In this document: positions 5,707 to 37,832 of the stretch, piece by piece
How the letters are laid out: each line of letters opens with the position of its first letter
How positions within the stretch are numbered: the first letter of the stretch is position 1
DNA from: Desulfomicrobium macestii
GTDB taxonomy: Bacteria; Desulfobacterota; Desulfovibrionia; Desulfovibrionales; Desulfomicrobiaceae
Direction of reading: 5' to 3'
NCBI RefSeq assembly: GCF_014873765.1
Contig: NZ_JADBGG010000031.1
Coordinates: 1-54,224, forward strand
Length of the DNA: 54,224 nucleotides
Made by a program: the position numbers and the translations under genes
Notes under the pieces: generated by a model
Seen by the model: only the letters and a program-made list of their open reading frames with translations
Database searches by the model: none
What the model was told of the DNA's origin: nothing

Positions 5707-5765
5707 TACATTCATTAACATGGCCCGCCGGGAATTCCCGGCGGGCCCCTTCACAAGGAGCAGAC

Positions 5766-9620: not shown

Positions 9621-9628
9621 GGAATGCC

Positions 9629-10078: not shown

Positions 10079-10483
10079 TCAATGCTGGTGGCCGCTGCAC
10101 ACCTGCAATTCTTCAAGTTCGTGATGATTTTCGTTGCATTCGTCCGTCCCCTCAGGGTTGCGGATCAGCTTTAGTTCCCGCCTCTCCATGGCCATGAGGG
10201 CCTCTTCCGCGGACAGGCCCGACCCGAAAAATCGGGTCACGTGGTCGTCCGCCAGAATCTTGAAAACATCCTCTTCGAGCTTGCCGGTGATCAACGCTTC
10301 ACAGCGGTGTTTCAGGATCATTTCGGCCAAGGCGATCTCCGAGTTTTTCCCGGACTTGTCATGCGGAATGCTTGTGCATTCCATCGTCTCTACATTCACG
10401 ATCAGCAGAAACGGAGTTTTCGAGAATTCTTCGAAAACCGGACTGGCCAGGGATGCTCCTGCGGCGCTTACTGCAATATTCAT
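10079..10483 (-). CDS. NifX/NifB-type dinitrogenase FeMo-cofactor family protein
   Basis: A 134-residue protein of the NifX/NafY/NifB C-terminal family (MNIAVSAAGASLASPVFEEF, LVNVET..CTSIPHD, LKHRCEALITGKLEEDVFKIL). Family members bind iron-molybdenum or iron-sulfur clusters. In sulfate reducers, homologues often occur outside nitrogenase clusters, as in Orp or MTH1175-like proteins. The tail is rich in His, Cys and acidic residues (ECNENHHELEELQVCSGHQH), suggesting metal binding. It converges on the ModE-like gene, with a short inverted repeat between them (10025-10066, GCCTGTTTCGATGATTCGCC region). It is transcribed away from a 470-base regulatory gap. Confidence 0.82.
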   Translation of the reverse strand: MNIAVSAAGASLASPVFEEFSKTPFLLIVNVETMECTSIPHDKSGKNSEIALAEMILKHRCEALITGKLEEDVFKILADDHVTRFFGSGLSAEEALMAMERRELKLIRNPEGTDECNENHHELEELQVCSGHQH

Positions 10484-10951: not shown

Positions 10952-10967
10952 ATGTCAAAAATGACAT
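10952..10967. promoter_or_regulatory. Palindrome ATGTCA-AAAA-TGACAT
   Basis: Six-base perfect arms around AAAA, 45 bases upstream of the preferred start of the MoeA-like gene. It overlaps the upstream alternative ATG at 10952, which argues that the region is regulatory and that the longer reading frame is not the true start. Confidence 0.45.
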
Positions 10968-11011
10968 GTTTTAATATTAAAATGCCAATCAAGATATATT
11001 TTGGACATGCG

Positions 11012-12034
11012 ATGAAATCCATCCCCGTTGAAGAAGCTGTCGGCACCGTTCTTTGTCATGACATCACGCGCATCGTTCCCGGCGAGGCCAAGGGACCCGC
11101 CTTTCGGCGCGGGCACATTGTCGGCCCGCATGACATTTCCACCTTGCTCGATATCGGCAAGGCCCATCTTTATGTTTTCGATCCCAGAGACGGATACGTC
11201 CACGAGGATGAATGCGCCCTGCGCCTGGCCCGGGCAGCGGCCGGACAGGGCATCTCCATCAGTTCGCCAAGCGAGGGCAAGTCGACGCTCACCGCCGCCC
11301 ACGACGGTGTCCTGTCCATCGACGTGGAAGGACTTTTCCGCCTCAATTCCATCACCGACGTGACTTTTGGCACCATCCACACCGGCCAGTTCGTGAAGTC
11401 GGGCAGAGTGCTCGGCGGCACGCGGGTCATCCCGCTGGCCGTGCCGGAAGAGTTGCTGCAGGAGGCCGAGGGCGTCTGTCGCGAGCATGCCCCGCTCATC
11501 GAGGTCCGCCCCTTGAAGCCCGCGCGCGTCGGCGTGGTGACCACGGGCAGCGAGGTCTACACCGGCCGCATCAAGGACGGCTTCGGGCCGGTGCTCAGGA
11601 AGAAATTCGAAGGTCTTGGATCAACCGTTCTGGATCAGGTTTTCGTCTCGGATCAGGTCGAGATGACAGTCGAGGCCATCATGGGCCTCAAGGAGCGGGG
11701 CGCGGACTTCATCGCCGTCACCGGCGGCATGAGCGTCGATCCCGACGATCAGACCCCGGCGGCCATCAGGGCGACCGGTGCCCGGGTCGTTTCCTACGGC
11801 GCGCCCACCTATCCCGGCGCCATGTTCATGCTCGCCTATCTGGATGACGTGCCCGTGGTCGGACTGCCGGGATGCGTCATGTACTACAAAGCCAGTATTT
11901 TCGATCTGATCGTGCCCCGTCTGCTGACCGGGGAGCGTTTGGAGCGGAAGGATATTGTTGCGTTCGGTCACGGAGGCCTGTGCGAAAGCTGTCCCAGTTG
12001 CCACTACCCGGCCTGCGGCTTCGGCAAACTCTAG
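11012..12034 (+). CDS. MoeA-like molybdopterin-binding protein with Cys-rich tail
   Basis: A 340-residue protein closely parallel to the C-terminal two-thirds of the FmdE-MoeA fusion upstream: GVVTTGSEVYTGRIKDGF, VTGGMSVDPDDQTPAAIR, GAPTYPGAMFMLAYL and the same ending, GLCESCPSCHYPACGFGK. MoeA proteins insert molybdate into adenylylated molybdopterin. This short form lacks parts of classical MoeA, and its C-x2-C-x2-C-x4-C tail is unusual. It sits 54 bases before the aldehyde oxidoreductase gene, suggesting a dedicated role in its cofactor supply. I prefer ATG 11012 (MKSIPVEEAVGTVL) because family similarity starts there; ATG 10952 lies inside a palindrome. The ribosome site is weak for both. 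Confidence 0.85.
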   Translation: MKSIPVEEAVGTVLCHDITRIVPGEAKGPAFRRGHIVGPHDISTLLDIGKAHLYVFDPRDGYVHEDECALRLARAAAGQGISISSPSEGKSTLTAAHDGVLSIDVEGLFRLNSITDVTFGTIHTGQFVKSGRVLGGTRVIPLAVPEELLQEAEGVCREHAPLIEVRPLKPARVGVVTTGSEVYTGRIKDGFGPVLRKKFEGLGSTVLDQVFVSDQVEMTVEAIMGLKERGADFIAVTGGMSVDPDDQTPAAIRATGARVVSYGAPTYPGAMFMLAYLDDVPVVGLPGCVMYYKASIFDLIVPRLLTGERLERKDIVAFGHGGLCESCPSCHYPACGFGKL

Positions 12035-12088: not shown

Positions 12089-14806
12089 ATGATTAAGAAG
12101 CAAATTGTGGTCAATGGCATCCCCAGGAACCTGGTGGTCGACGCGGAAGAAACCCTGGTCAACGTGATCAGGAAGAGCATCGGCCTGACCGGCACCAAGG
12201 TCGGCTGCAACGAAGGCCAGTGCGGGGCGTGCAGCGTCATCATGGACGGCAAGGTCGTGCGTTCCTGTGCGACCAAGATGAAACGCGTCAACGATGGCGC
12301 CGAGATCACCACCATCGAAGGCATCGGCACCCCGGCTAATCCGCACCCGCTGCAGCTCGCCTGGATGCTCCACGGCGCTGCCCAGTGCGGATTCTGTTCC
12401 CCGGGCTTCATCGTCTCGGCCAAGGGCCTGCTGGACACCAACCCCAGCCCGACCCGCGACGACGTCCGCGACTGGTTTCAGAAGCATCGCAATGCCTGCC
12501 GTTGCACCGGCTACAAGCCGCTGGTGGACGCCGTCATGGACGCGGCCAAGGTGCTGCGCGGCGAAAAGAGCGCGGCCGACCTCGAATTCAAGATGCCTGC
12601 CGACGGCAGTGTGTGGGGCACCCGCTACCCCCGTCCCTCGGCCTTGAGCAAGGTCACGGGAACCCTGGATTTCGGCGCTGATCTGGGCCTGAAGATGCCC
12701 GCCGGTACCCTGCAGTGCGCCATGGTGCAGGCCGAAGTGTCTCACGCCAAGATCCTGTCCATCGACACCACCGAAGCCGAGAAGATGCCCGGCGTGTTCA
12801 AGGTCGTCACCCACAAGGATGTGAAGGGCAAGAACCGCATCACCGGTCTGATCACCTTCCCCACCAACAAGGGCGACGGCTGGGATCGTCCGTTCCTGTG
12901 CGACGAGAAGATCTTCCAGTACGGTGACGCCATCGCCATCGTCTGCGCCGACACCGAAGAGCAGGCCAAGGCCGCTGCCAAGGCCGTCAAGGTCGAGATC
13001 GAGCAGCTGCCCGAATACATGAGCGCTCCGGCGGCCATGGCCGAGGACGCCATCGAGATCCATCCCGGCACGCCCAACGTCTACTACATCCAGAAGATCG
13101 CCAAGGGCGCCGAGACCGCTCCCATCTTCGACAAGGCCGACGTGGTCGTGGAAGGCAGCTACTACACCTCCCGCCAGCCCCATCTGCCCATCGAGCCGGA
13201 CTGCGGCTTTGCGTACATTGATGACGAAGGAAAGCTGATCATTCACTCCAAGTCCATCGGCCTGCACCTGCATCTGTACATGATCGCTCCCGGTCTTGGT
13301 CTGGAACCCGATCAGCTGCACCTGGTTCAGAACCCGGCCGGCGGCACCTTCGGCTACAAGTTCAGCCCGACCCTGGAAGCCCTCGTCGGCGCCGCCGCCC
13401 TGGCCACCGGTCGTCCCGTGAATCTGGTATACGATTATCGTCAGCAGCAGGCCTACACCGGCAAGCGCTCCCCGTTCTGGACCAACGTGCGTCTGGCCTC
13501 CACCAAGGACGGCAAGCTTCTGGGCATGGAAACCGACTGGACCGTCGACCACGGCCCGTATTCCGAGTTCGGCGATCTGCTGACCCTGCGCGGAGCCCAG
13601 TACATCGGCGCCGGCTACGATATCGAGAACATTCGCGGTGAAGGCCGCACCGTCTGCACCAACCACTGCTGGGGCGCTGCGTTCCGTGGCTACGGCGCTC
13701 CCGAATCCGAGTTCCCGTCCGAGACCCTGATGGACGAACTGGCCGAAAAGCTGGGCATTGATCCTTTTGAACTGCGCTACAAGAACATCTACCGCAAGGG
13801 TTCCACCACCCCCACGGGTCAGGATCCTGAAGTGTACAGCCTGCCCGAAATGTTCGACATCATGCGGCCCAAGTACGAGGAAGCCAAGAAGCGCGCCGCC
13901 GCTGCCTCCACCGCCGAAGTCAAGCGCGGCGTGGGCATCGCCCTGGGCGTTTACGGCGCAGGCCTTGATGGCGCCGACTCCGCCGCCGCCGATGCCGAAC
14001 TGATGGCCGACGGCACCGTCACCATCTACGACTGCTGGCAGGATCATGGCCAGGGCGCCGACATGGGCACCCTGGGCACGGCTCACGAAGCCTTGAAGCC
14101 GCTGGGCATCACGCCCGACAAGATCCGCCTGGTCATGAACGACACCCGCGTGGCTCCCAACACCGGCCCTGCGGGCGGCAGCCGCTCCCAGGTCATGGGC
14201 GGACAGGCCATCATCAACGCCTGCGAACAGCTGCTCAAGGCCATGAAGAAGCCTTCCGGCGGATTCCGCACCTACGATGAGATGGTCGCCGAAAAGCTGC
14301 CCACAAAGTATAACGGCAAATGGACCGCTCCCGCCAAGGATTGCGACGCCAACGGCCAGGGCAGCCCCTTCTGCTGTTACATGTACGGCCTGTTCCTGTC
14401 CGAGGTCGCTGTCGAAGTCGCCACCGGCAAGACTACGGTCGAAAAGATGGCCATTGTCGGCGATATCGGCAAGGTCAACAACTACTCCCTGGTCGACGGC
14501 CAGATCTACGGCGGCGTGGCCCAGGGCATCGGCCTGGCGCTGACCGAGGATTACGAGGACCTGAAGAAGCATGCCACCATGCGCGGCGCCGGTATCCCCT
14601 ACATCAAGGACATCCCGGACTCCATGGACATCACCTATGTGGAGACCCCGCGTCCCGCCGGCCCCTTCGGCGCCTCCGGTGTCGGTGAAATGCCTCTGAC
14701 CGCTCCTCACGCAGCGGTCCTGAACGCCGTGTACAACGCCTGCGGCGCTCGTATGCGCGAGATTCCCGCGCTGCCGGAGAAAATCCTGGCTGCAATGAAG
14801 AAATAA
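12089..14806 (+). CDS. mop: Aldehyde oxidoreductase, xanthine oxidase family
   Basis: A 905-residue molybdenum enzyme very like D. gigas MOP, which oxidises aldehydes to carboxylic acids. Domains in order: a plant-type [2Fe-2S] ferredoxin with C40, C45, C48 and C60; a helical [2Fe-2S] domain with QCGFCSPG (about 100-107) and NACRCTG (about 136-142); then the large molybdopterin domains. The catalytic glutamate is E867 in GASGVGEMPL. No FAD domain is present, as in MOP. D. gigas MOP carries molybdopterin cytosine dinucleotide, so the downstream nucleotidyltransferase and XdhC fit as cofactor makers. ATG 12089 follows a perfect GGAGGA. No signal peptide, so it is cytoplasmic. Codon use is strongly biased to C-ending codons, suggesting high expression. 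Confidence 0.96.
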   Translation: MIKKQIVVNGIPRNLVVDAEETLVNVIRKSIGLTGTKVGCNEGQCGACSVIMDGKVVRSCATKMKRVNDGAEITTIEGIGTPANPHPLQLAWMLHGAAQCGFCSPGFIVSAKGLLDTNPSPTRDDVRDWFQKHRNACRCTGYKPLVDAVMDAAKVLRGEKSAADLEFKMPADGSVWGTRYPRPSALSKVTGTLDFGADLGLKMPAGTLQCAMVQAEVSHAKILSIDTTEAEKMPGVFKVVTHKDVKGKNRITGLITFPTNKGDGWDRPFLCDEKIFQYGDAIAIVCADTEEQAKAAAKAVKVEIEQLPEYMSAPAAMAEDAIEIHPGTPNVYYIQKIAKGAETAPIFDKADVVVEGSYYTSRQPHLPIEPDCGFAYIDDEGKLIIHSKSIGLHLHLYMIAPGLGLEPDQLHLVQNPAGGTFGYKFSPTLEALVGAAALATGRPVNLVYDYRQQQAYTGKRSPFWTNVRLASTKDGKLLGMETDWTVDHGPYSEFGDLLTLRGAQYIGAGYDIENIRGEGRTVCTNHCWGAAFRGYGAPESEFPSETLMDELAEKLGIDPFELRYKNIYRKGSTTPTGQDPEVYSLPEMFDIMRPKYEEAKKRAAAASTAEVKRGVGIALGVYGAGLDGADSAAADAELMADGTVTIYDCWQDHGQGADMGTLGTAHEALKPLGITPDKIRLVMNDTRVAPNTGPAGGSRSQVMGGQAIINACEQLLKAMKKPSGGFRTYDEMVAEKLPTKYNGKWTAPAKDCDANGQGSPFCCYMYGLFLSEVAVEVATGKTTVEKMAIVGDIGKVNNYSLVDGQIYGGVAQGIGLALTEDYEDLKKHATMRGAGIPYIKDIPDSMDITYVETPRPAGPFGASGVGEMPLTAPHAAVLNAVYNACGARMREIPALPEKILAAMKK

Positions 14807-14821
14807 TGACCTGGTCAACCT

Positions 14822-14857
14822 CCCTCCGGGCGCTTTTGTGCCCGGAGGGCTTTTTTT
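14822..14857 (+). terminator. Rho-independent terminator after mop
   Basis: CCCTCCGGGC (14822-14831) and GCCCGGAGGG (14840-14849) form a perfect 10-bp stem with an 8-base loop, followed by C and seven T. It lies only 18 bases before the next start codon, so it probably sets a high mop to low accessory-gene ratio rather than ending the operon fully. Confidence 0.85.
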
Positions 14858-14874
14858 ATTTCTAAGGAGTGGTC

Positions 14875-17151
14875 ATGGACCAGAAGGAACTCAGGAAATG
14901 GGAAGCGAAATGCATCCAGGAGGAGCCCCCCAAATGCAAGGCCGGGTGTCCCCTGGGAGTTGATGCCAGAGCTTTCGCCCAGGCAATGGCCAAGGGCGAT
15001 CTTGGCGCTGCGAGGACCGTGCTCGAAAAGAGCATGCCTCTTGCGGCGATTACGGCCCGATTGTGCGAGGCGCCCTGCGAGGAATTCTGCGTCCGGGGGG
15101 ATCTTGGAGGAGCCGTGGCCCTTGGAGGGCTTGAGCGCCTGTGCATCCGGGAGACCCGGCCCAAAGGCAAGCTTCTGCGTCTTCCCGCCCGCCCCCGCAA
15201 GGTGGCGGTGTTCGGGGCAGGGCCGAGCGGCCTGGCCGTGGCCTTTGATCTGGGCAAGAAAGGTTACCCCGTGACCGTGTACCATGTCGGCGAGGCTCCC
15301 GGCGGGTGGCTTCGCGATCTTCCCGAGGCCGACCTGCCGACGCGGGTGCTCGACGAGGAGCTGTCCAGGCTCGCCTCCCTGCATGTGACCTACGTGTCCG
15401 TCCCCGTCATGGATTTGGCCCTGGTCGAAGCGCATCCCGCCGACGCGGTGTATGTGGGTCAGGATGACGCACTTGCTCCGGAACTCCTGGCCTTGCTCGG
15501 TTCTCCTGATCCCGACACCTTTGCGCTGGAGCGTCCGGGCTGGTTCACGGGCGCGCTGGAAGGGCGGTCGCACCGGTTCATCAGCGCTGTTTCCCATGGC
15601 CGCGAAGCAGCCGTTTCCATCGACCGCTACCTGCAGAACGCCTCCCTGACCTCAAGCCGCGTTTTTCTGCGCAGGGGCCAGACATCGCTTTTTACCCGGA
15701 CCACGGACATTGCCCCTGTCCAGAGGGTTGTCCCGGCCGACGGCGTCGCATTCACCACAGAGGAGGGCCTGCTCGAAGCGGCGCGCTGCATCGACTGCCA
15801 GTGTCTGGAGTGCGTGCGGCACTGCGTGTATCTGTCCGAGTACGGCGGGTATCCCAAGAGTTATGCACGCCGTGTCTTCAACAATTCGGCCATAGTGAAG
15901 GGTGGGGGCGTGCATCAGGCCAACACGTTCATCAATTCCTGCTCCCTGTGTGGGCAGTGCGAAACGCTGTGTCCCAACGACTTTTCCATGGCCGACATGT
16001 GCCTGGACGCAAGGCGACTGATGGTGCGCGACAACCGCATGCCGCCGTCGGCCCACTGGTTCGCCCTGGAGGAGATGCGCTCGGCAGCGAGCGAACAGGC
16101 CGCCTTTATCAGGCATGCGCCCGGAGCACCGGACAGCGCAATGCTCTTCTTTCCGGGTTGCCAGCTCTCCGGCATCCGTCCAGACCAGACCCTGCGCCTT
16201 TACGACCGCCTGCTGGAGATGGAGCCGCGCACGGGCATCTGGCTCGACTGCTGCGGCGCTCCCGCCCACTGGGCAGGGCGCGAGGACGAGTTCGCGGCCG
16301 TGCTGGGCAAGCTGGAGGAGGCCTTCAAAACCATGGGCAGCCCCAGGGTCGTCACGGCCTGTTCGACCTGTCTCAAGATGTTTCGCGAACACCTGCCGGC
16401 ATTCGGGGCCGAATCGGTCTGGACCCTGCTGGCGGGCGAGGCCCTGATTCCCGGCGAGCCCCGTGAGCCTCTGGCCCTGTCCGATCCCTGCACATCGCGG
16501 CACGACGCCGCCACGCGCGGGGCCGTGCACGCCGTGCTGGAGAAGCTCGGGCAGCCCCTGGCGCCGTTGGCCATGTCCGGCGAGCTGACGGAATGTTGCG
16601 GCTTTGGCGGCCTGATGGACAACGCCAACCCTGCCCTGGCCCGCAAGGTCGCCCAGGCGAGAGTGGCCCAGTCCGAGGCCTCTTTTCTGACCTACTGCGC
16701 CATGTGCCGCGATCAGCTGGCCAAGACCGGCAAGCCCGTCCTGTACATCCTTGACCTGCTTTTTCCTGATCTGGCCCACGGTGCTACCGAACCGCCCGCC
16801 GGCATCTCGGCCCGGCGCGTGAACCGGCGCAGGCTCAAGGACGCTCTCCAGGGCCGGCACGGCCGCGAGGGCATGCCGCGTCAGCCCTTTGAGGACGTGT
16901 CCCTGGTTTATTCCACGGAAGTGGCCGAACTCTTGGAGACCCGGCGCATTCTCGAAGACGACCTGCGCCAGGTCCTGCACAAGGTCCGAAACGGCGGGAA
17001 ATGTCTGGTCCATGGCGAAGACGGCCGCAGGATTGTCGCGGCCGAACTGGGTGAGGTCACCTACTGGGTGGAATTCAGGCACGTAAAGGATGGTTTCGAG
17101 GTCCTGCGGGCCTGGTCTCATCGCATGCGCATCGCGGGAGGGCGGATATGA
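14875..17151 (+). CDS. Flavin/FeS/CCG-domain electron-transfer fusion
   Basis: A 758-residue fusion. Residues about 13-95 are a DPD/GltD-type FeS N-terminal domain (CKAGCPLGVDA, CEAPCEEFC). Residues about 110-265 are a shortened FAD-binding domain (KVAVFGAGPSGLAVAFDLG, APGGWLRDLPEADLP, then GREAAVSIDRYLQ); the second nucleotide domain of GltD appears missing. Two ferredoxin clusters follow (CIDCQCLECVRHC and CSLCGQCETLCPND). Then come two CCG domains as in HdrD/GlpC (FFPGCQLSG..DCCGAP; CSTCLKMF..CCGFGG..CAMC). The last 90 residues are unassigned. The likely role is to carry electrons between the aldehyde oxidoreductase and a quinone, thiol or ferredoxin pool. ATG 14875 has AAGGAG five bases upstream. 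The next gene overlaps its stop. Confidence 0.88.
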   Translation: MDQKELRKWEAKCIQEEPPKCKAGCPLGVDARAFAQAMAKGDLGAARTVLEKSMPLAAITARLCEAPCEEFCVRGDLGGAVALGGLERLCIRETRPKGKLLRLPARPRKVAVFGAGPSGLAVAFDLGKKGYPVTVYHVGEAPGGWLRDLPEADLPTRVLDEELSRLASLHVTYVSVPVMDLALVEAHPADAVYVGQDDALAPELLALLGSPDPDTFALERPGWFTGALEGRSHRFISAVSHGREAAVSIDRYLQNASLTSSRVFLRRGQTSLFTRTTDIAPVQRVVPADGVAFTTEEGLLEAARCIDCQCLECVRHCVYLSEYGGYPKSYARRVFNNSAIVKGGGVHQANTFINSCSLCGQCETLCPNDFSMADMCLDARRLMVRDNRMPPSAHWFALEEMRSAASEQAAFIRHAPGAPDSAMLFFPGCQLSGIRPDQTLRLYDRLLEMEPRTGIWLDCCGAPAHWAGREDEFAAVLGKLEEAFKTMGSPRVVTACSTCLKMFREHLPAFGAESVWTLLAGEALIPGEPREPLALSDPCTSRHDAATRGAVHAVLEKLGQPLAPLAMSGELTECCGFGGLMDNANPALARKVAQARVAQSEASFLTYCAMCRDQLAKTGKPVLYILDLLFPDLAHGATEPPAGISARRVNRRRLKDALQGRHGREGMPRQPFEDVSLVYSTEVAELLETRRILEDDLRQVLHKVRNGGKCLVHGEDGRRIVAAELGEVTYWVEFRHVKDGFEVLRAWSHRMRIAGGRI

Positions 17152-17360
17152 GCAGTCTTACGTTCGAGCCCAAGGACATGAACTGGGTCTGCGAGCCCTG
17201 CGGCCAGGCCCTGGAGCTTGGCCGCGTGGAACTCACGTATCTGGGCAACTCCTTTCATGTGGAGTTGCCGGTCTGTGCCAGGTGCGGAGCGGTGTACATC
17301 TACGAAGAGCTGGCCATGGGGCGGATCTTCGAAGTGGAGCAGTTGCTTGAGGACAAATGA
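17148..17360 (+). CDS. Small zinc-ribbon/redox protein, DVU_1557-like
   Basis: A 70-residue protein with two CxxC knuckles, WVCEPCGQAL (about residues 13-22) and PVCARCGAVY (about 41-50), around a short beta region. It would bind one zinc or iron. It matches what I recall of a small redox protein conserved beside the D. vulgaris aldehyde oxidoreductase (DVU_1557 family label). ATG overlaps the preceding stop (ATGA). Its role is unknown; possibilities are a rubredoxin-like electron carrier or a zinc scaffold for the neighbouring enzymes. Confidence 0.8.
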   Translation: MSSLTFEPKDMNWVCEPCGQALELGRVELTYLGNSFHVELPVCARCGAVYIYEELAMGRIFEVEQLLEDK

Positions 17361-18051
17361 ACTTTATGCCTCGCCTCCGGTGCGCAAGTTTCTCGGCCCG
17401 GCGCTGCGTCCGGGCGGCGAGAGGCTGACCCGGCTCATGCTGGAGCTGGCAGGCCCGCTGCACGGCGCGCTGGCTCTGGACGCCGGATGCGGTTGCGGGG
17501 CGACCCTGGCGCTGCTCAGGGAACATGGGGCCAGGGCCGTGGGTTTGGACTTGAATGCGGCTTTGCTGCGCGAAGCCGGAGACGTGGATGCGCGCGTCGC
17601 ACAGGCTGATTTGGCCGATCTGCCGTTGCCGGACGCATGCCTGGACCTCGTTCTGTGTGAATGCGTCTGGAACCTGACCGACAAGGAGCGCGTGCTGGCG
17701 GAATTTCGCCGGGTCCTCAGGCCGGGAGGAACGCTCGCACTGGCCGACATTTACGCGCGCGGGTGCCGCACCGGGGATTGGCCCGTGCGCTGCTGTTTCG
17801 CGCAGGCCACGGATCTGCAGACGGTGATGGAGCAGGTTGCCGGAGCCGGATTCGAGATCGATGTGGTCGAGGAGCACACGGAATTGCTCAAGAAGACCGC
17901 TGCCGATTTCGTGTTCCGGCACGGCTCCCTGCACGGCTTCTGGCAGGCCGTGACCGGCGACCCGGTGCTGGCGCAGATGGCCTGCGACGCCTCGCGGGCA
18001 TCGAAGCCGGGTTTGTTTCTGCTGATTGGGCATGCCAGGAAAGTTACATAA
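17347..18051 (+). CDS. SAM-dependent methyltransferase, DVU_1556-like
   Basis: A 234-residue class I methyltransferase: motif I LDAGCGCGATLALL, GLDLN for the SAM ribose, LADLPLPDACLDLVLC as motif II, and the motif III region RVLRPGGTLALADIY. The substrate is unknown. It is UbiE/COQ5-like and could methylate a small molecule, a cofactor or a protein. The first in-frame start is TTG 17347, inside the end of the zinc-ribbon gene, with GGAG seven bases upstream; there is no ATG for about 90 bases after it, and conservation (YASPPVRKFLGP) begins right after TTG. Its position next to a radical SAM gene is what I recall for a pair labelled TrsM/TrsS. Confidence 0.82.
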   Translation: MRTNELYASPPVRKFLGPALRPGGERLTRLMLELAGPLHGALALDAGCGCGATLALLREHGARAVGLDLNAALLREAGDVDARVAQADLADLPLPDACLDLVLCECVWNLTDKERVLAEFRRVLRPGGTLALADIYARGCRTGDWPVRCCFAQATDLQTVMEQVAGAGFEIDVVEEHTELLKKTAADFVFRHGSLHGFWQAVTGDPVLAQMACDASRASKPGLFLLIGHARKVT

Positions 18052-18087
18052 GTCCTATAGGACCTATAAGACCTATGGGACCTATAG
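18052..18087. repeat. Four 9-bp tandem repeats, GNCCTATRR-like
   Basis: Units at 18052-18060, 18061-18069, 18070-18078 and 18079-18087 read GTCCTATAG, GACCTATAA, GACCTATGG and GACCTATAG. The array starts at the base after the methyltransferase stop codon and ends 37 bases before the next start. Similar short arrays are common in this order; number variation could alter spacing within the transcript. Confidence 0.85.
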
Positions 18088-18124
18088 AGCACTTTGTTTT
18101 ATTTAAACAAATACCGAGGCCGAC

Positions 18125-18571
18125 ATGAACGAATACGATCTCGACATCCTGCGCCTGCACACCCAGGGTTTTTGCTGCGCGCAGATCGTCGTGCAGATGG
18201 CTCTGGAGATGCAAGGTGCTGAAAATCCGGGTCTCATCCGGGCCATGTCTGGACTGTGCGTGGGTTTCTCGTCCGCTCGGGGCGCGTGTGGAGCCTTGAC
18301 CGGAGCAGCCTGTCTCATTGCCTATTATGCGGGAAAGGGTACGGCCGATGAACAAGCGCACGACAGATTGCCCCTCATGCTGACCGAACTCGCGGATTGG
18401 TTCGAGGAATACGCCACGGAACGCTTCGGAGGCATGGCCTGCTCGGCCATCGTGCCCTACGGCAAGCCGGATGCATCCATCTGCGGCGGCCTTGTCTCCG
18501 AGTGTTTCGGCAGGGCCATGACCATCCTGGTTGAAAACGGATTTGACCCTTCGAGCGATGTTCATGAGTAA
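18125..18571 (+). CDS. C-GCAxxG-C-C family redox protein, DVU_1555-like
   Basis: A 148-residue protein with the family signature: GFCCAQIV near residue 16, ARGACGALTGA near 56, then later cysteines (MACSAIV, ASICGGLVSECFG). Members of this family are predicted to bind a metal cluster and often sit beside redox enzymes. No signal peptide is seen, so it is cytoplasmic. Its distal end overlaps the radical SAM gene, so the two are translationally coupled. The role in this operon is unknown; it may be a cluster donor or electron carrier. Confidence 0.85.
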   Translation: MNEYDLDILRLHTQGFCCAQIVVQMALEMQGAENPGLIRAMSGLCVGFSSARGACGALTGAACLIAYYAGKGTADEQAHDRLPLMLTELADWFEEYATERFGGMACSAIVPYGKPDASICGGLVSECFGRAMTILVENGFDPSSDVHE

Positions 18572-19919
18572 GGTTTTGGGTTCGATCCGGAGCGTGTGTC
18601 CGGAATGTCTGGGCAGGGTGACCGGGGAGCTGGTGCAGACCGGGGATGTCGTGCGCATGGTCAAGAGATGTCCCGAGCATGGAGAGTATACGACAGTTGT
18701 CTGGCGAGGGAATCCGGCATTTTCAAGCTGGGTGCGGCCCAAGATTCCTTTTGGCGGTGGTGTGCGCGAATCGGTCGGCAATGGCTGCCCCTATGACTGC
18801 GGCCTGTGCGCGCGCCATGCCCAGCGCACCTGCACGGCATTGGTCGAGATCACCTCGCGCTGCAACCTGCACTGTCCGGTATGCTTCGCCGACAGCGGCG
18901 GGGCAGAAAAAGATCCGGATCATGACGTCCTGCGGCGCATGTTCGAGCAGACCATGGCCCGCACCGGCGGCTGCAACCTGCAACTCTCCGGCGGGGAGCC
19001 GACTGTGCGCGATGATCTGCCGGACATCGTGCGCCTGGCCAAGCGTGCCGGGTTCGGGTTTGTGCAGCTCAATACCAACGGGCTGCGTCTGGCCGAAGAT
19101 CCGGCCTTGGCCGGAAAGCTCGCCGAGGCCGGGCTGTCGTCGATTTTCTTGCAGTTTGACGGCGTGCGCGACGAGGTCTTTCGCGCCTTGCGCGGCCGGG
19201 ATCTGCTGGAGACAAAGAAAAGGGCCATGGACCACGCGGCCGGAGCGGGACTCGGCATCGTGCTCGTGCCGACCGTGGCGCGCGGCGTGAACGTCGATCA
19301 GCTGTGGGATATCGTCCGGTTCGGGCTTGAGCGTCAGCCCCATGTGCGCGGAGTGCATTTTCAGCCCATGAGTTATTTCGGTCGCTTTCCCGCTGATTTT
19401 TCACCGGAGCACGTCACCTTGCCCGAGGTCATGACCGGCCTGTGCGAGCAAAGCGGCGGCGAGATCAAGGCGGGAGATTTTTTGCCTCCGGGCTGCGAGC
19501 ACGCCCTGTGCTCCTTCTCGGGCAAGTTCATGACGCGCGAGGACGGCGCGCTCATGCGCATGGGCAGCGGGACTTGCGACTGCACCCCAAGGCCCGCCGA
19601 GGCCGGAGCGCTGAAGTCCATTGGCGTCACGGCCCGTCAATGGTCCGCTCCGGTGGTCCCGGAGGCTCAGTCTTCAGATTGTTCCCGCACGTCCCCGGAC
19701 ACCTCGCCTGGCGACGACCTGGATCGTTTTCTGGCCCGCGCCCGGACGCATTCCTTCACCATTTCGGGCATGGCCTTTCAGGACGCCTGGACCCTCAATC
19801 TGGACCGCTTGCAGGGGTGCTGCATCCACGTGGCCCAGCCCGACGGGCGGCTCATCCCCTTTTGTGCCTTCAATCTGACGTCCAGGGATGGCCGCAGCCT
19901 GTATCGCGGTACCGTATGA
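18558..19919 (+). CDS. Radical SAM protein, TrsS-like
   Basis: A 453-residue radical SAM enzyme. The N terminus has a rubredoxin-like knuckle (SVCPECLGRV and MVKRCPEHGEY), then GCPYDCGLCARH, then the canonical CNLHCPVCF (C-x3-C-x2-C) that holds the [4Fe-4S] cluster and SAM. LQLSGGEPTVRDDLP is the GGEP motif. A long C-terminal part has further cysteines (CEHALCSFSG, GTCDC, GCCIHV) that may hold auxiliary clusters. Its overall pattern matches MoaA/PqqE-like SPASM-type enzymes and a family I recall as TrsS, in which some members are selenoproteins; here the GCCIHV site is two cysteines. The start is uncertain between ATG 18558 and 18564, both overlapping the previous gene. It overlaps the ligase gene by ATGA. 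Confidence 0.88.
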   Translation: MFMSKVLGSIRSVCPECLGRVTGELVQTGDVVRMVKRCPEHGEYTTVVWRGNPAFSSWVRPKIPFGGGVRESVGNGCPYDCGLCARHAQRTCTALVEITSRCNLHCPVCFADSGGAEKDPDHDVLRRMFEQTMARTGGCNLQLSGGEPTVRDDLPDIVRLAKRAGFGFVQLNTNGLRLAEDPALAGKLAEAGLSSIFLQFDGVRDEVFRALRGRDLLETKKRAMDHAAGAGLGIVLVPTVARGVNVDQLWDIVRFGLERQPHVRGVHFQPMSYFGRFPADFSPEHVTLPEVMTGLCEQSGGEIKAGDFLPPGCEHALCSFSGKFMTREDGALMRMGSGTCDCTPRPAEAGALKSIGVTARQWSAPVVPEAQSSDCSRTSPDTSPGDDLDRFLARARTHSFTISGMAFQDAWTLNLDRLQGCCIHVAQPDGRLIPFCAFNLTSRDGRSLYRGTV

Positions 19920-21223
19920 AGCCAAGCAGCGTGGACGCCTTGTCGGCCAGGCGCCTCGGCCTTGCCTGGCCTCCGGACCGGGAGCGGATTGAGACCGCGC
20001 GCATGGAAGCGCTCAGAAGCACCGTGGCCCACGCACGGCAAAAGAGCTCCTGGTACCGTGAGCGACTGGCGGGTCTGGACCCGGATTGTCTGCGCTCCAG
20101 CGTCGATCTTGCGCGTCTTCCCTTTCTGAACGGCGCGGACTTGGCGGCCCACGGCCGAGAGCTGCTCTGCGTCTCCCAGAGCGAGGTGGCACGTATTATC
20201 ACTTTGCAGACCTCCGGCAGCACCGGCGCGCCCAAAAGGCTGCATTTCACGCGCGAGGACCTGGATTCGACTGTCGATTTTTTTCAGCAAGGCATGTTTT
20301 CGCTCATTTCATCCCACGACAAAGTGCTCGCCCTGCTCCCTTTTTCCCTGCCGGACAGCACCGGTGATCTGCTCATCCGTGCCCTGGCAAAAGGGGGCGT
20401 GCACTGCGAGGGCGTGTGGCCGCCGACAGACTGGAGGGCTTTGGCCCTGCGCATCCGGGACGAGAATTTTACCAGCATCGTCGGCCTGCCCCAGCACCTC
20501 CTGGCTCTGGCCTATGAACTTCCGCACGGCCTGGTGCGCACCATGCTCCTGTGCTCGGATTACGCCCCGCAATCCCTGCGCGCCCGAATCGAGGAAGCCT
20601 GCGGCAGCGAGACCTTTCTGCACTACGGCACCACCGAGACGGGACTTGGCGGCGGCGTGGAATGTCTGGCGCACGGCGGCTGTCACATGCGCGAGTCAGA
20701 CCTCCTGATCGAGATCGTCGACCTGCGCACAGGAGCACCCGTGCCCGAAGGCGAGGTGGGGGAGGTGGTCGTCACCACCCTGAACCGTCAGGCCATGCCG
20801 TTGCTGCGTTACCGCACCGGAGACCTGGCCAGCCTCGACACGTCGCCCTGCCTGTGCGGCGGGGTCTCAGCCCGCTTGTGCGACATCCGGGGTCGGCGCA
20901 AGGCCTGTCCGATCGCGGGAGGCTACTCCGTGGCCAGCCAGGACCTCGATGATGCCCTCTTTGCGCTGGATGGCCTGCTCGATTATCGCGCCTCCTTGAC
21001 ACGTTCGGCCGGAAGGGATGCAATCAGCGTTGAATTTCTGGCCAGGCCGGGGCATGAGCGCCTGGAGCGGGAGATTCATCGGGCCTTGAAATCGGTGCCT
21101 GCCCTGAACATGGCCATGCAAAGCCTGACCTTCGAGGCCGGGCCCGCGCTGCGGGTGGAGTCCTTTTCTCCGTCGCACACCTTGAAACGCACCATCCTTG
21201 ATAACCGTGGGAGTTGTTCATGA
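19916..21223 (+). CDS. PaaK-like AMP-dependent acyl-CoA ligase, DVU_1553-like
   Basis: A 435-residue ANL-superfamily adenylating enzyme of the phenylacetate-CoA ligase type. The P-loop is TSGSTGAPK (about residue 100), the YGTTETG motif lies near 238, and LLRYRTGDLA holds the ribose-binding Asp. The C-terminal domain is short. It would activate a carboxylate as acyl-AMP and then to a thioester. Next to an aldehyde oxidoreductase it could act on the acid product or on a cofactor precursor; this is inference. ATG 19916 overlaps the radical SAM stop as ATGA. An apparent upstream extension of the frame is a shadow of the radical SAM gene. Confidence 0.87.
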   Translation: MKPSSVDALSARRLGLAWPPDRERIETARMEALRSTVAHARQKSSWYRERLAGLDPDCLRSSVDLARLPFLNGADLAAHGRELLCVSQSEVARIITLQTSGSTGAPKRLHFTREDLDSTVDFFQQGMFSLISSHDKVLALLPFSLPDSTGDLLIRALAKGGVHCEGVWPPTDWRALALRIRDENFTSIVGLPQHLLALAYELPHGLVRTMLLCSDYAPQSLRARIEEACGSETFLHYGTTETGLGGGVECLAHGGCHMRESDLLIEIVDLRTGAPVPEGEVGEVVVTTLNRQAMPLLRYRTGDLASLDTSPCLCGGVSARLCDIRGRRKACPIAGGYSVASQDLDDALFALDGLLDYRASLTRSAGRDAISVEFLARPGHERLEREIHRALKSVPALNMAMQSLTFEAGPALRVESFSPSHTLKRTILDNRGSCS

Positions 21224-22245
21224 ATGATATATTTCAGTCTGTTGTGGAAGTTCTTCGGAAGGGGGAAGACGCTGTTTTCTGTGGCATCGTCGAGAGTTCC
21301 GGCTCTGCCCCACGCACTTCCGGGGCGCGCATGCTGGTGCTGTCCGACGGGTCCATCCATGGCTCGGTGGGCGGTGGCCCCGTCGAGGGAGCCTGCCAGG
21401 CCAAGGCCGCAAAACTTCTGCAAGGGACAAAGACGCATCACTTTCTGTCCTTTGACCTGAATTCCGTCAAAGCCGCCGATGCGGGGATGGTCTGCGGTGG
21501 AGCGGTCAAGGTGCTGCTGCAGCGGGTTTCCGCGGAGCATCTGCCATTTTTCGAAAACATCGTGTGTTTGCAGCGAGAAGGGGAGAGGCCGGTGCTGGTC
21601 ACCGTCATGCAGCCGAAGCAGGATCCCGTGCTGGCCGTCTGGACGGCGCGCGACGGACTGGCGGGAGCCGCACCGCCTGAAACCCTCGCCGCTGAGCTGG
21701 CGCGCAAGGCCGCCAAGACGCGTCAGTCCTTTGGTCTCGAAGAAAGCGGCGTTAGCGTCTTTGCGGAGCCCGTCGTCATGCCGACGGTGCTGCACCTGGT
21801 CGGCGCGGGGCATGTGGCCCTGGCCACGGCCAAGGTCGCGGCTTTTGCCGGATTCGAGGTGGTGGTCATGGACGATCGCTCCGAATTTGCCGATCCCGGG
21901 CGTTATCCAGAGGCGCGCGAGGTGCGCGTGCTGGAAAATTTCGATGCCTGCCTCGCCGATCTTGGCGCCGACGACTATGTGGTCATCGTCACGCGTGGGC
22001 ATCTGCACGACCGCGACGTCCTGGCCCAGGCGCTCAAAACCGGGGCCGGGTACATCGGCATGATCGGCAGTCGCAGCAAGCGCGACGCGGTGTACCGTTC
22101 GCTTCTGGAGTCCGGCTATACCCAGGCAGACCTGGACCGCGTCTTTTGTCCTATCGGTCTGACCATCGGCGCGGACACGCCCGAGGAAATCGCCGTCAGC
22201 ATCGTCGGCGAGATGATCCGGGTACGGGCCGGGGTCCCGGCGTGA
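21220..22245 (+). CDS. XdhC/CoxI family molybdenum-cofactor insertion protein
   Basis: A 341-residue protein with the XdhC N-terminal motif (GIVESSGSAPRTSGARM, GSVGGGPVEGAC) and a C-terminal Rossmann domain (LHLVGAGHVALATAKVAA, VTRGHLHDRDVL, YIGMIGSRSKR, IGLTIGADTPEEIAVSI). XdhC binds molybdenum cofactor, promotes its sulfuration and delivers it to xanthine-oxidase-family enzymes. Here the client is almost certainly the aldehyde oxidoreductase encoded upstream. ATG 21220 overlaps the ligase stop by ATGA and follows GGGAG. The downstream nucleotidyltransferase overlaps its stop. Confidence 0.93.
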   Translation: MNDIFQSVVEVLRKGEDAVFCGIVESSGSAPRTSGARMLVLSDGSIHGSVGGGPVEGACQAKAAKLLQGTKTHHFLSFDLNSVKAADAGMVCGGAVKVLLQRVSAEHLPFFENIVCLQREGERPVLVTVMQPKQDPVLAVWTARDGLAGAAPPETLAAELARKAAKTRQSFGLEESGVSVFAEPVVMPTVLHLVGAGHVALATAKVAAFAGFEVVVMDDRSEFADPGRYPEAREVRVLENFDACLADLGADDYVVIVTRGHLHDRDVLAQALKTGAGYIGMIGSRSKRDAVYRSLLESGYTQADLDRVFCPIGLTIGADTPEEIAVSIVGEMIRVRAGVPA

Positions 22246-23354
22246 CGGAAGGAGGCACACGCTTCGGGGCCGTCATCCTTGCGGCCGGGTTTTCCTCGCG
22301 CATGGGCGATTTCAAACCCCTCATGGACCTCGGCGGCATGGCGGTGCTGGAGCGCTGCGTGCGCATGTTTCGCGACGCAGGCGTCGAGCGGGTCCTGGTA
22401 GTCACCGGGCATCGCGCCCCCGAGGTGCGGGCCGAGGCCGGGCGGTTTGGCGTACCCACGATTTACAACGAGGGGTACGAGAAGGGCATGTTTTCCTCCG
22501 TGCGCACGGCCGTGTCCGCCATGTCCGGGCACGACGCCTTCTTTCTCCTGCCCGTGGACATCCCGCTGGTCCGTCCTTCCACGGTCACGGCCCTGCTCGA
22601 CGAGTATGACGGCCGCATCGCCTTTCCCGTCTTCGAGGGAGAACGCGGACATCCGCCCCTCATTCCCGCCGCCCTGATCCCCGCCATCCTGGAACATGAC
22701 GGCCGGGGCGGTCTGAAGACGCTGCTGGAAGGGTACCGTGCCCTTGATGTTCCGGTCTGGGACAGAGGCATCCTTCTTGATGCCGACACCATGACGGATT
22801 TTGCGCTTCTTGAGAGGCGCGCCGCCCGTCTCCATATCGGCGATCGCGGCGAGGCCCTGGCCCTGGCCGCGCAGTCCATGCCCGAGCGGGGCCTCGCACA
22901 CGGTCTGGCAGTGGCCGCCGTGGCCTTGCGCCTGGGCGGAGAGCTGAACCGGCATGGAGGGAATCTTGATCCGGACCTGATCCACAACGCCGCGCTGCTG
23001 CATGACGTGGCCAAGGGCTGTCCCGGGCATGAGGCCGCCGGCGGCGAGCTGCTGGCGCGTTTCGGGCTGTCCGGCTTGTCCTCCATAGTGGCCGCCCATC
23101 GCGACGTCCCGCCCCCGGCTTCGGGCGTGCTGACGGAGAAGGAGGTGGTCTGTCTGGCCGACAAGCTGGTGCGCTGCGACAGGCGTGTGGCCGTGCGGGA
23201 TCGTTTCGGCGAGAAGCTGGCCCTGTACCGCTGCGACGAGGAGGCCTGCGCGGCCATCCGAGGCCGCATGGACAACGCCCTGGCCCTGGTGGCCCTGGTC
23301 GAGGCGGCCTGCGGTCGGGGTATCGAGGAGATTCTTGTGGGGGAAGCGGCGTGA
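22242..23354 (+). CDS. MobA/MocA-like nucleotidyltransferase fused to HD domain, DVU_1551-like
   Basis: A 370-residue fusion. Residues 1-190 are a MobA/MocA-type transferase with the signature AVILAAGFSSRMGDFKPL, LPVDIPLV and FPVFEGERGHPPLI. MocA adds CMP to molybdopterin to give the cytosine dinucleotide used by xanthine-oxidase-family enzymes. Residues about 215-330 are an HD phosphohydrolase-like domain (HNAALLHDVAKGCPGHE). The HD role is unknown; it might hydrolyse a nucleotide by-product. The start is GTG 22242, overlapping the XdhC stop as GTGA. The frame continues upstream only as a shadow of XdhC. Confidence 0.9.
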   Translation: MTEGGTRFGAVILAAGFSSRMGDFKPLMDLGGMAVLERCVRMFRDAGVERVLVVTGHRAPEVRAEAGRFGVPTIYNEGYEKGMFSSVRTAVSAMSGHDAFFLLPVDIPLVRPSTVTALLDEYDGRIAFPVFEGERGHPPLIPAALIPAILEHDGRGGLKTLLEGYRALDVPVWDRGILLDADTMTDFALLERRAARLHIGDRGEALALAAQSMPERGLAHGLAVAAVALRLGGELNRHGGNLDPDLIHNAALLHDVAKGCPGHEAAGGELLARFGLSGLSSIVAAHRDVPPPASGVLTEKEVVCLADKLVRCDRRVAVRDRFGEKLALYRCDEEACAAIRGRMDNALALVALVEAACGRGIEEILVGEAA

Positions 23355-23947
23355 GCGAAATCTATCTCATCCGCCACGGCGAGATCACCCAGTCCTCGCC
23401 GCGTCGCTTTGTGGGGCAGACGGATCTGCCTCTGACGGACAGGGGGCGGGAGCAGATTGAAAGGGTGGCGCTATTTCTTACCGGCAGGGGCGTGGGGCGG
23501 CTGCTGTGCAGCCCGATTTCGCGCTGCGTGGAGAGCGCGGGCATCATCGGCGCGGTTCTGGGGATTGCGCCCGAAATCGTCCCGGACCTGCGCGAGATCG
23601 CGCTTGGCGCCTGGGAGGGCCTGACCGTGGACGAGGTGCGCGAGCGTTTCCCGGGCCGCTACGAGGCGCGGGGCCGAAACCTGGCAGGATTCCGTCCGCC
23701 GGACGGGGAGAGCTTCGCCGACGTGCAGCGCCGAGCCTGGCCGGCCTTCGAGACGGCCGCCGTCGATCTGGATGAACCTCTGGCCATCGTGGCTCACGGA
23801 GGAGTCAACCGCGTGCTCCTGTGCCGCATCCTGGGCATGCCGCTCGAAAACCTGTTCCGCCTGGAGCAGCACTATGCCTGTGTCAATATTCTGCGGGAGG
23901 ACGACGGTGAGTTCCGCGTGGCGACGATGAACCATTGGGCGGAGTGA
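23351..23947 (+). CDS. Histidine phosphatase family protein (CobC/phosphoglycerate mutase-like)
   Basis: A 198-residue protein with the catalytic LIRHGEI motif at residues 5-11, a second arginine in CSPISRC, the acid residues near EIALGAWEGLT and the second histidine in IVAHGGVNRVLL. The substrate is unknown. CobC homologues remove a phosphate from alpha-ribazole phosphate, but no other cobalamin gene is here. As the last gene of the mop operon it could dephosphorylate a cofactor intermediate. GTG 23351 overlaps the preceding stop as GTGA. A strong bidirectional terminator follows. Confidence 0.88.
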   Translation: MSEIYLIRHGEITQSSPRRFVGQTDLPLTDRGREQIERVALFLTGRGVGRLLCSPISRCVESAGIIGAVLGIAPEIVPDLREIALGAWEGLTVDEVRERFPGRYEARGRNLAGFRPPDGESFADVQRRAWPAFETAAVDLDEPLAIVAHGGVNRVLLCRILGMPLENLFRLEQHYACVNILREDDGEFRVATMNHWAE

Positions 23948-24082: not shown

Positions 24083-25285
24083 TCAGAAGCGGTAGGCCAC
24101 GCTCATGCCGACCAGATGGGCGTCGCCGTCCTCGAAGTCGGCGGTTTCGACGTTCCCGCCGCTGACATGGATTTCCGCGCCCTTGCGGTCGATGATCAGC
24201 AGATAGGTATAGCCAAGATCCACGCTCCAGGCGTCTCCGTGCCAGCCAAGGCCGGCGGAGAAGAGCTGACGGTCGTTGGCCGGGACCATGTAGTCGGCGC
24301 GTTCGGTGCGGACGGGCGTTTCGTCGTAGACGTAGCCGGCTCGCAGATCCCAGGCCGGAGTCAGGGCGTATTCGGCCCCGATCGCCAGTCTCCAGGTGTC
24401 TTTCCAGTCCTTGAAGACGGGGCCGGAGGGGTTGACGCCATTGATACGGATGTCCAGTTCCTCGTATGAGGACCAGCCAGTGCGGGTCACGTCCACTTCG
24501 ATGCTCAGCCTGTCGACGGGGGTCAGGCACATGCCGAGGGACCAGGAGTCCGGCAGGGTGATTTCGCCGTCGGCGTCACCGTTGAGCTTGTCGCCCAAGG
24601 TTCCGGGCACGTTGCTTTCGGCCTCGCCGCGCGGATGCACGTCGATGGCGCTGCGGTACATGAGCCCGAAGGACAGCCAGTCCGTCGGTGCATACAGGGT
24701 GGAAACGCTGACACCCAGTCCGACGTCGTCGCCCCGGACCTTCAGGTCGTAGGCTCCGGCCACTGTCTTCTTCTGCTCGAAATCGAAATAATTGGCCTCG
24801 ACGCCAAGGCCGATGGACCAGGTGTCCGTAAGCTTCATGCCGAGCACCGGCGTAACGGAAACGCTCTTGATGCCCGCATAATAGACGCTGCTGCTTCCGG
24901 CCCAGTCCTCGTCGAATTCCGTGCCGAGCCCGAAGCGGTTGTAGACGCCGATCCCCAGCCAGTAGCGCTCGCCGAGCTGGTGCACTGCATAGGCATGGGG
25001 CAACAGCCAGACATTGTCCTTGCCGTCGGCGCTCTGCCGTCCGTCAATGGACACGGTGGCCATGGGGGCCACGGCCACCAATCCGGTCATGACCTGCGTG
25101 CCGTTCAGCCCGGTCATGGCGGCGGGGTTGGACGCCACCACCGAGGCATCGGCCTTTCTGGCCATGGTCGTGCCGCCGAGGGCATTGCCCCGTGCGCTCC
25201 ATTCGTAAACGGCAAAGCCGGCCGCCGACACCTGCTGTCCCGTCAGCAACAGCGCCAACATGACAGCGGCAACAATTCTCCCCAT
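24083..25285 (-). CDS. FadL/OmpP1-type outer-membrane transport protein
   Basis: A 400-residue outer-membrane beta-barrel. A signal peptide ends at VSA-AGFAVYEWSARGNALGG, and the mature N terminus with ASNPAAMTGL is typical of the FadL hatch region. The C terminus ends in phenylalanine (SVAYRF), as for barrel insertion. FadL-family porins take up long-chain fatty acids or aromatic hydrocarbons. No fatty-acid gene is adjacent, so the substrate is open. The start has a GAGGAGG-type site. It is a single-gene transcript ending at the shared terminator. Confidence 0.9.
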   Translation of the reverse strand: MGRIVAAVMLALLLTGQQVSAAGFAVYEWSARGNALGGTTMARKADASVVASNPAAMTGLNGTQVMTGLVAVAPMATVSIDGRQSADGKDNVWLLPHAYAVHQLGERYWLGIGVYNRFGLGTEFDEDWAGSSSVYYAGIKSVSVTPVLGMKLTDTWSIGLGVEANYFDFEQKKTVAGAYDLKVRGDDVGLGVSVSTLYAPTDWLSFGLMYRSAIDVHPRGEAESNVPGTLGDKLNGDADGEITLPDSWSLGMCLTPVDRLSIEVDVTRTGWSSYEELDIRINGVNPSGPVFKDWKDTWRLAIGAEYALTPAWDLRAGYVYDETPVRTERADYMVPANDRQLFSAGLGWHGDAWSVDLGYTYLLIIDRKGAEIHVSGGNVETADFEDGDAHLVGMSVAYRF

Positions 25286-37821: not shown

Positions 37822-37832
37822 TTAGACAATAC

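Follow-up and report, generated by a model that had tools for sequence, protein, structure and literature searches.

We analyzed a stretch of 54,224 nucleotides from the Desulfomicrobium macestii contig NZ_JADBGG010000031.1 (the whole stretch is called the window below), which at 12089-23947 carries a same-strand (+) run of ten genes that starts with mop, encoding the molybdopterin-dependent aldehyde oxidoreductase Mop. The first-pass annotation of this DNA had described a ten-gene operon with mostly overlapping junctions, and this was confirmed: with the starts chosen here overlap occurred at seven of the nine junctions, gaps of 62 and 73 bases followed mop and the methyltransferase gene, respectively, and the family assignments stood as proposed. 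What that annotation missed is that the operon consists of two units, Mop with the genes for its maturation and a module that is found in genomes without Mop as well, and that the small zinc-ribbon protein of this module (ZnRib) shows near-complete conservation of its C-terminal tail. The module comprises the radical S-adenosylmethionine (SAM) enzyme TrsS, the methyltransferase, the CoA ligase, the C-GCAxxG-C-C (CGCA) protein, ZnRib and the C-terminal domain of the flavo-iron-sulfur protein Diclust (Table 1).

Specific NCBIfam models exist for nine of the ten proteins and all nine scored above their curated cut-offs, while the phosphatase has no specific model. The neighborhood was thus already familiar to curators, and the family names (DVU_1551, 1553, 1555, 1556 and 1557) fit the likeness to DVU_1551-1559 that the first-pass annotation had pointed to. 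The TrsS/DVU_1551-1557/pterin_aldehy/diclust_near_Sec family set describes the same neighborhood as the operon; its names give no pathway. Within the excerpts returned by a full-text search with DVU locus tags and model accessions no functional account of the neighborhood was found, and in the excerpted text DVU_1559 (Mop) appeared as a table row in D. vulgaris papers (PMC10920352, PMC11784015), as did DVU1558 in PMC3114432. In the main text of the D. vulgaris fitness-data paper (excerpt) no gene of DVU1550-1559 is mentioned and Mop is not a topic.

Mop carries the Fer2, Fer2_2, MoCoBD_1 and MoCoBD_2 domains and therefore has the two 2Fe-2S and both molybdenum cofactor-binding domains of the xanthine oxidase family, its nearest solved structures being 1DGJ and 1SIJ/1VLB. 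In the CGCA protein C18, C55, C106 and C120 were conserved in 139/139 rows, and its profile gave no match in the PDB at E<=0.1. The CoA ligase, whose closest PDB relative is PaaK, retains the adenylation-domain motifs, while no lysine of its C-terminal domain reached the 93% line. The methyltransferase has a conserved Glu-Cys pair (134/137 and 137/137 rows; residues 106-107 counted from 17344), and its relatives include arsenite methyltransferases.

Table 1. Window positions of the ten operon genes and the adjoining upstream gene
Protein	Position	Strand	Model match and remarks
MoeA2, MoeA-like molybdenum insertase, upstream block member	10952..12034	+	Pfam MoCF_biosynth; 54 bases before mop
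Mop, molybdopterin-dependent aldehyde oxidoreductase	12089..14806	+	NF045668, 1708 bits (cut-off 1100)
Diclust, GltD/Nfn-like flavodomain, 4Fe-4S dicluster, two CCG motifs, C-terminal domain of ~95 residues	14869..17151	+	NF045663, 907 bits
ZnRib, zinc-ribbon protein of 70 residues (DUF7479, DVU_1557 family)	17148..17360	+	NF045645, 97 bits; C-terminal EQLLEDK
Class I SAM methyltransferase (DVU_1556 family)	17347..18051	+	NF045667, 208 bits, scanned from 17344; in-frame TTG start 17347 unsure
CGCA protein (DVU_1555 family), putative Fe-S or redox protein	18125..18571	+	NF045669, 172 bits; PF09719
TrsS, radical SAM enzyme, tetraether-lipid-synthase fold	18558 or 18564..19919	+	NF045646, 641 bits
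PaaK-like AMP-forming CoA ligase (DVU_1553 family)	19916..21223	+	NF045666, 391 bits
XdhC-family maturation factor	21220 (ATG, likelier) or 21214..22245	+	NF045664, 400 bits
MocA-like cytidylyltransferase fused to HD domain (MocA-HD; DVU_1551 family)	22242 (GTG)..23354	+	NF045665, 416 bits; NTP_transf_3 and HD
Histidine phosphatase, alpha-ribazole-phosphatase-like	23351..23947	+	TIGR03162, 152 bits, under cut-off 163

Conservation of the operon and occurrence of the module without Mop

Loci centered on TrsS (best 80 of 199) spanned Desulfobacterota, Bacillota, Chloroflexota, Campylobacterota and other groups, with the nearest relatives of the window TrsS in Desulfomicrobium. Counts were based on the 43 loci with full flanks of ~10 kb, in which TrsS and the CoA ligase were present in 43, Diclust and CGCA in 42, ZnRib in 41 and the methyltransferase in 40, followed by Mop (36), XdhC (35), MocA-HD (31), the phosphatase (30) and MoeA2 (13). 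For five of the seven loci without Mop this gene was cut by the left edge of the stretch, and the other two (L035 and L051; L and G denote our locus and genome numbers) have a full Mop elsewhere in the genome. Among 60 Desulfovibrionales loci centered on Mop, hand-picked from a longer match list, TrsS was found in 54 and MoeA2 in 55. Of the six loci lacking TrsS, L133 lies at a contig end, L151 and L154 hold paralogous Mop copies from G115, a genome whose third copy adjoins TrsS, L139 and L165 belong to genomes with TrsS elsewhere, and L148 is from G003.

At the genome level, 296 Desulfobacterota genomes (the phylum of the window) with at least 90% completeness were searched for TrsS and the ligase above cut-off and for ZnRib at E<=1e-8 (31 above cut-off). 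TrsS, the ligase and ZnRib were each detected in 34 genomes and Mop in 28, with 32 genomes sharing TrsS and ZnRib, 32 TrsS and the ligase, 31 ZnRib and the ligase, 28 Mop and ZnRib, and 26 Mop and TrsS (Fisher p 4.5e-28 for Mop with TrsS). A similar association was observed in the phylum to which Sporomusa sp. KB1 belongs (249 genomes; Mop 17, TrsS 15, both 14; p 3.6e-19), and one more Mop genome, G508, has a TrsS that is cut by a contig end and scores under cut-off. Scattering of the genes in other genomes, which would have spoken against the first-pass annotation, was therefore not observed in the 43 and 60 loci or the 296 and 249 genomes. Several open reading frames (ORFs) combined operon proteins, namely methyltransferase-TrsS (one), MocA-HD-phosphatase (three), ligase-phosphatase (one) and ligase-MocA-phosphatase (one); domain search did not bear out a suspected TrsS-ligase fusion in L057. 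Genes that recurred in the flanks (families assigned by eye) included sigma-54 regulators, Mo/W transporters and an aldehyde dehydrogenase, none of them a constant neighbor.

Eight TrsS genomes of the 296 had no Mop above cut-off. G243 has a Mop split over contigs with one piece beside TrsS, and G347, whose contig is short, was set aside. In the loci of six Mop-less genomes (L174-L179) as well as in L180 (G189, where TrsS is incomplete), ZnRib, a free-standing Diclust C-terminal domain and the methyltransferase were present, and so was the CoA ligase, which in G222 lies on another contig. CGCA was found in L175 and L180 only, and Mop, XdhC, MocA-HD and the phosphatase were not found in the fetched stretches of L174-L180. 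G189 and G247 carry CGCA, the Diclust C-terminal domain, ZnRib, methyltransferase, TrsS and ligase genes side by side. The free-standing domain corresponds to positions ~670-757 of NF045663 (four copies tested), and neither these four copies nor the corresponding stretch in the window matched a Pfam family above cut-off. The Mop model found nothing at E<=1e-60 in G222, G265 and G189, in a search that detects other xanthine-oxidase-family proteins elsewhere, G281 and G413 have xanthine-oxidase-family matches under the Mop cut-off, and for G247 and G259 absence was judged at 1e-200 only. The six Mop-less TrsS sequences placed in a tree formed one clade (SH-like approximate likelihood ratio support 100, by a quick method and with a long outgroup branch). 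Presence of the module in Mop-less genomes indicates that it does not serve Mop alone.

ZnRib, Diclust and TrsS

Exact conservation of the ZnRib tail is new here: E-x-x-[L/I]-E-D-K followed by the stop codon was found in 130 of 135 distinct C-termini (L004-L188; these sequences are related and do not count as independent events), with IEDK occurring three times, in the Mop-less loci L176, L178 and L179. Synonymous codons were used freely in the 130 tails (Glu GAG 80 and GAA 50, Asp GAC 76 and GAT 54, Lys AAA 68 and AAG 62; stop TGA 62, TAG 35 and TAA 33), so that selection acts on the protein. Constraint from overlap with the next gene was considered and rejected, since AAATGA occurs in only 32/130 and synonymous codons vary. 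When all families were compared with redundancy kept, LEDK ended 134/139 ZnRib matches, while the commonest terminal tetrapeptides of any other family were PFGK of MoeA2 (30/79) and AMPK of Mop (28/154); 11 Diclust ORFs end in LEDK as well, through a fused ZnRib. A comparable tail is absent from the other operon proteins. The four cysteines C15, C18, C43 and C46 of ZnRib were invariant (51 rows), and its profile gave weak zinc-finger matches only in the PDB.

ZnRib was fused to Diclust or to its C-terminal domain in 12 ORFs, which end in LEDK in 11 cases and in LEGK in L057. These fusions argue against a cleaved precursor of the ribosomally synthesized and post-translationally modified peptide type. 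Because they retain the tail at their end, they would suit a tail that acts as a docking peptide and holds a Mop-Diclust-ZnRib electron-transfer complex together, with TrsS, the methyltransferase and the ligase serving some other end. We regard this explanation as distinctly unlikely: the IEDK tail also occurs in three Mop-less loci, and the 34 ZnRib genomes have TrsS in 32 and the ligase in 31 cases. A parallel is offered by the amino-group carrier LysW, like ZnRib a small zinc ribbon with four cysteines and a conserved acidic C-terminal tail, which ends in EDWGE and to whose last residue the substrate is attached (PMC10433800, excerpt). ZnRib is not a LysW, given that its tail is ExxLEDK and that the operon ligase is of the AMP-forming PaaK-like rather than the LysX type, although the logic is alike.

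The CCG motifs of Diclust (C431/C461C462/C498xxC501 and C541/C576C577/C610xxC613) were complete in 125/125 rows. Two complete CCG motifs and a 4Fe-4S dicluster are shared with proteins of the HdrB/HdrD, LutA, EtfD and GlpC type, from which Diclust differs by fusion to an Nfn/GltD-like flavodomain and to its C-terminal domain. A structural model of the Diclust-ZnRib fusion from L063 resembled NfnABC/StnABC (Z 32) in its first part and EtfD (Z 20) over residues 1-687, and LutA (Z 19) and HdrB (Z 17) over about 432-664. As we read the model, the flavodomain would lack an NAD(P) domain. These features suit an electron-transfer flavoprotein, and action on a disulfide-like substrate is our guess.

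For TrsS the PDB search gave the tetraether synthase Tes (7TOL; 273 bits, two stretches), and the predicted TrsS structure (pLDDT 89.6) superimposed on 7TOM with Z 47.6 and a root-mean-square deviation of 1.8 over 394 aligned residues, the next family being MoaA at Z 21.8. All 12 ligand positions (C14x2C17x20C38x2H41, C77x3C81x2C84 with H87, C102x3C106x2C109, and M405) were conserved in 42/42 orthologues. They correspond to the set described for Tes by Lloyd et al., consisting of a rubredoxin site, an N-terminal cluster with His, the radical SAM cluster and the labile Met439, where the equivalence of M405 was read from the PDB alignment and the residue-by-residue comparison covered these 12 positions, leaving aside the Cys ligands of the C-terminal cluster. 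Tes, also known as GDGT-MAS (MJ0619, 7TOL/7TOM), thus shares the predicted fold and these sites with TrsS, but TrsS is shorter (453 residues vs 498 in the 7TOM chain), diverges in the substrate region 311-392, remains under the cut-off of the Tes model NF045702 (324 bits, cut-off 450) and has another gene neighborhood. Tyr459 of Tes is replaced at TrsS position 425 (Val in 31/42, never Tyr), which is not decisive for the chemistry since the Tes variants Y459F and Y459L stay active. TrsS is among the selenoproteins listed in a 2026 review, which cites Haft and Tolstoy 2025 (PMC13188914, excerpt). No in-frame stop (UGA/selenocysteine) was found in the window TrsS, which is therefore the Cys form that the family label "(seleno)protein" permits. 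In the course of the Tes reaction a substrate carbon becomes bonded to cluster sulfur (Lloyd et al.), and by analogy it may fairly be inferred that TrsS catalyzes C-C coupling or transfers sulfur.

The reaction of bacterial Tes homologues was left open by Lloyd et al., and Zeng et al. suggest that they may make branched glycerol dialkyl glycerol tetraethers. Since TrsS has the Tes fold and ligand residues, it could itself be a bacterial lipid-coupling enzyme for membrane-spanning or ether lipids, in an operon that processes the fatty aldehydes and fatty acids released when lipids turn over. Its score under the Tes cut-off, its shorter chain and the divergent substrate region make this improbable, and no glycerolipid gene was recognized by eye among the recurrent flank clusters.

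The Mop unit and its cofactor

MoeA2, XdhC and MocA-HD form the maturation set of Mop for its molybdopterin cytosine dinucleotide (MCD) cofactor, perhaps together with the phosphatase; the fit of XdhC and the MocA-like enzyme to MCD maturation had been pointed out in the first-pass annotation and holds. The aldehyde oxidoreductase of D. gigas (MOP, 1VLB) is an orthologue of the window Mop and is encoded in the same operon, while the literature, as far as excerpted, treats the enzyme alone; in the excerpt of its history (PMC10223205) the word operon is absent and flavodoxin is named as "putative" electron partner. The crystallized D. gigas Mop segment was recovered with 100% identity over 206 residues in one genome (G092), where the locus (L114) reads MoeA2-Mop-Diclust-ZnRib-methyltransferase-CGCA-TrsS-ligase-XdhC-phosphatase; MocA-HD was not found in this stretch. 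D. desulfuricans (1DGJ) was dropped as a second crystal control because the best loci reached 95% over 84 residues only. The D. gigas structures at 2.25 and 1.28 A show MCD with clear pterin rings (PMC10223205, excerpt), and the R group of the cofactor is cytidine monophosphate (PMC3877041, excerpt). An operon-bearing organism thus makes a Mop with the usual MCD, as seen in the purified enzyme, where a label shed during purification would have escaped notice.

The first-pass annotation had suggested a modified Mop cofactor. Alteration of the pyranopterin (MCD) cofactor by the module would be in keeping with the tight linkage of the module to Mop and the MCD maturation genes, and with the fusion of the phosphatase, and once also of the ligase, to MocA-HD. 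The plain MCD in Mop from an operon-bearing organism disfavors this proposal, as do the occurrence of the module in Mop-less genomes, the retention of Mop without TrsS in G003 and the resemblance of TrsS to a lipid synthase rather than a pterin enzyme, so that we consider it largely refuted and highly improbable. Pterin methylation by TrsS, as implied by the Pfam name Zn_ribbon_HMPTM, was also rejected, because the label stems from MJ0619, which has been reassigned as a lipid synthase and whose HMPTM annotation was not corroborated by Lloyd et al.

Further genes related to molybdenum enzymes were noted in the window and at other loci. The two MoeA-like proteins (7854-9620, fused to an FmdE domain, and 10952-12034) both have Cys-rich ends with CxxCxxCxxPxCxFGK, and between their genes lie a LysR-type helix-turn-helix protein that is ModE-like by eye (9569-10048, +) and a small Nitro_FeMo-Co-domain protein (10079-10483, -). 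The region 2542-6701 encodes a second molybdopterin oxidoreductase (808 residues), a 4Fe-4S subunit and a protein of 311 residues without a Pfam match. A class-V aminotransferase of the cysteine-desulfurase superfamily lies in or beside the block in L076 (8507-9652) and L186 (1025-2245) and might supply the sulfur with which Mo is sulfurated. Convergent to the operon end is a gene for an outer-membrane transporter of hydrophobic compounds of the FadL/TodX type (24083-25285, -), and a tandem tRNA-His (gtg) pair was located at 37746-37948.

Proposed role of the module and competing readings

The explanation that we favor, tentatively, is that the module makes a dedicated redox group, which the ZnRib tail presents to an iron-sulfur partner of Mop. 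The module, without need for Mop, would build or load a small redox-active group by radical chemistry of the tetraether-synthase type, in which TrsS would have a substrate radical captured at its C-terminal 4Fe-4S cluster, while the ligase would activate a carboxylate and the methyltransferase would methylate. The ZnRib tail would carry or recognize the redox group and Diclust would use it, with electrons coming from Mop in this operon and from other low-potential oxidoreductases elsewhere. We infer the existence of such a product, its redox activity, its carriage on the tail and the path of electrons from Mop to Diclust from the gene content and conservation described above. The mycofactocin and pyrroloquinoline quinone (PQQ) systems, in which a radical SAM enzyme likewise stands beside a small protein and serves alcohol or aldehyde oxidoreductases, are comparable; in contrast to them the small protein here is a zinc ribbon that is sometimes fused to Diclust, and no PqqD-like protein was found among the operon families scanned.

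The neighbors of the Mop-less modules varied; an iron-sulfur protein resembling HdrB/LutA was usually among them. An HdrC/HdrB-like protein was found in L174 and L176-L178, and NarI-like and CCG proteins near L175. TRAP transporter and RACo genes adjoin L176, L178 and L179, the last of which also has a corrinoid protein and fumarate-reductase-like genes; in L174, 2-hydroxyacyl-CoA-dehydratase-like genes with an activase adjoin the module; and in L193 (G406, with Mop on another contig) the six-gene module is divergent from a tungsten-aldehyde-oxidoreductase-like/HdrD-like/HdrA2-like/VhuD-like set. The main rival, an acyl or catabolic route, draws on these genes and on the relationship of the ligase to PaaK: Mop or a tungsten aldehyde oxidoreductase would make an acid, the ligase its CoA ester, TrsS and the methyltransferase would transform it and Diclust would remove electrons. 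The partner genes differ between loci, however, the module of G189 (L180) lies among genes that look housekeeping-like by eye, with no adjoining transporter and with a flavin mononucleotide oxidoreductase (PF00724) gene flanking it, and no beta-oxidation gene was recognized by eye among the recurrent flank clusters, which leaves this route rather unlikely. Of the dedicated electron or acyl route put forward in the first-pass annotation, the electron side is the one that the HdrB/LutA-like features of Diclust would favor.

Several observations weigh against the proposed redox group. The module has no known product, and its surroundings in L176, L178 and L179 have a catabolic look. The Mop of G003 (L148/L182) is nested among operon-linked Mops, and no TrsS was found in this genome of 100% estimated completeness; G643 with three Mop copies and G519 with one truncated copy likewise gave no TrsS match at E<=1e-130; and G354 (L191), in which no TrsS was found at E<=1e-70, has retained Mop, Diclust, ZnRib, the methyltransferase, CGCA and a divergent ligase. 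The tail is altered, with the module present, in L057 (LEGK), in the Mop-less L174, L175, L177 and L180, and in L193 (LEEK). Docking may be all that a C-terminal tail does, fusion of ZnRib to Diclust is as compatible with a structural or redox domain as with a carrier, and the fusion model placed ZnRib at low confidence and left the tail unresolved.

A more specific form of the redox-group proposal, which we put forward as doubtful, would make ZnRib the carrier or precursor of a new redox cofactor that is built or held on the ExxLEDK tail, with radical SAM chemistry of the Tes type, methylation and activation of an acid all directed at it. Once loaded, the protein would serve an HdrB-like flavo-iron-sulfur enzyme as the acceptor for electrons from anaerobic aldehyde oxidoreductases. 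The neighborhood has been catalogued as annotation, while its function is an unsolved biochemical problem that can now be put to sharp tests. A molybdenum enzyme that has been a model for decades sits here in one operon with a tetraether-synthase-like radical enzyme and a small protein whose tail hardly varies. If the proposal is true, it would add a protein-carried cofactor comparable to PQQ, mycofactocin and the intermediates borne by LysW, present in Desulfobacterota, Bacillota, Chloroflexota and Campylobacterota.

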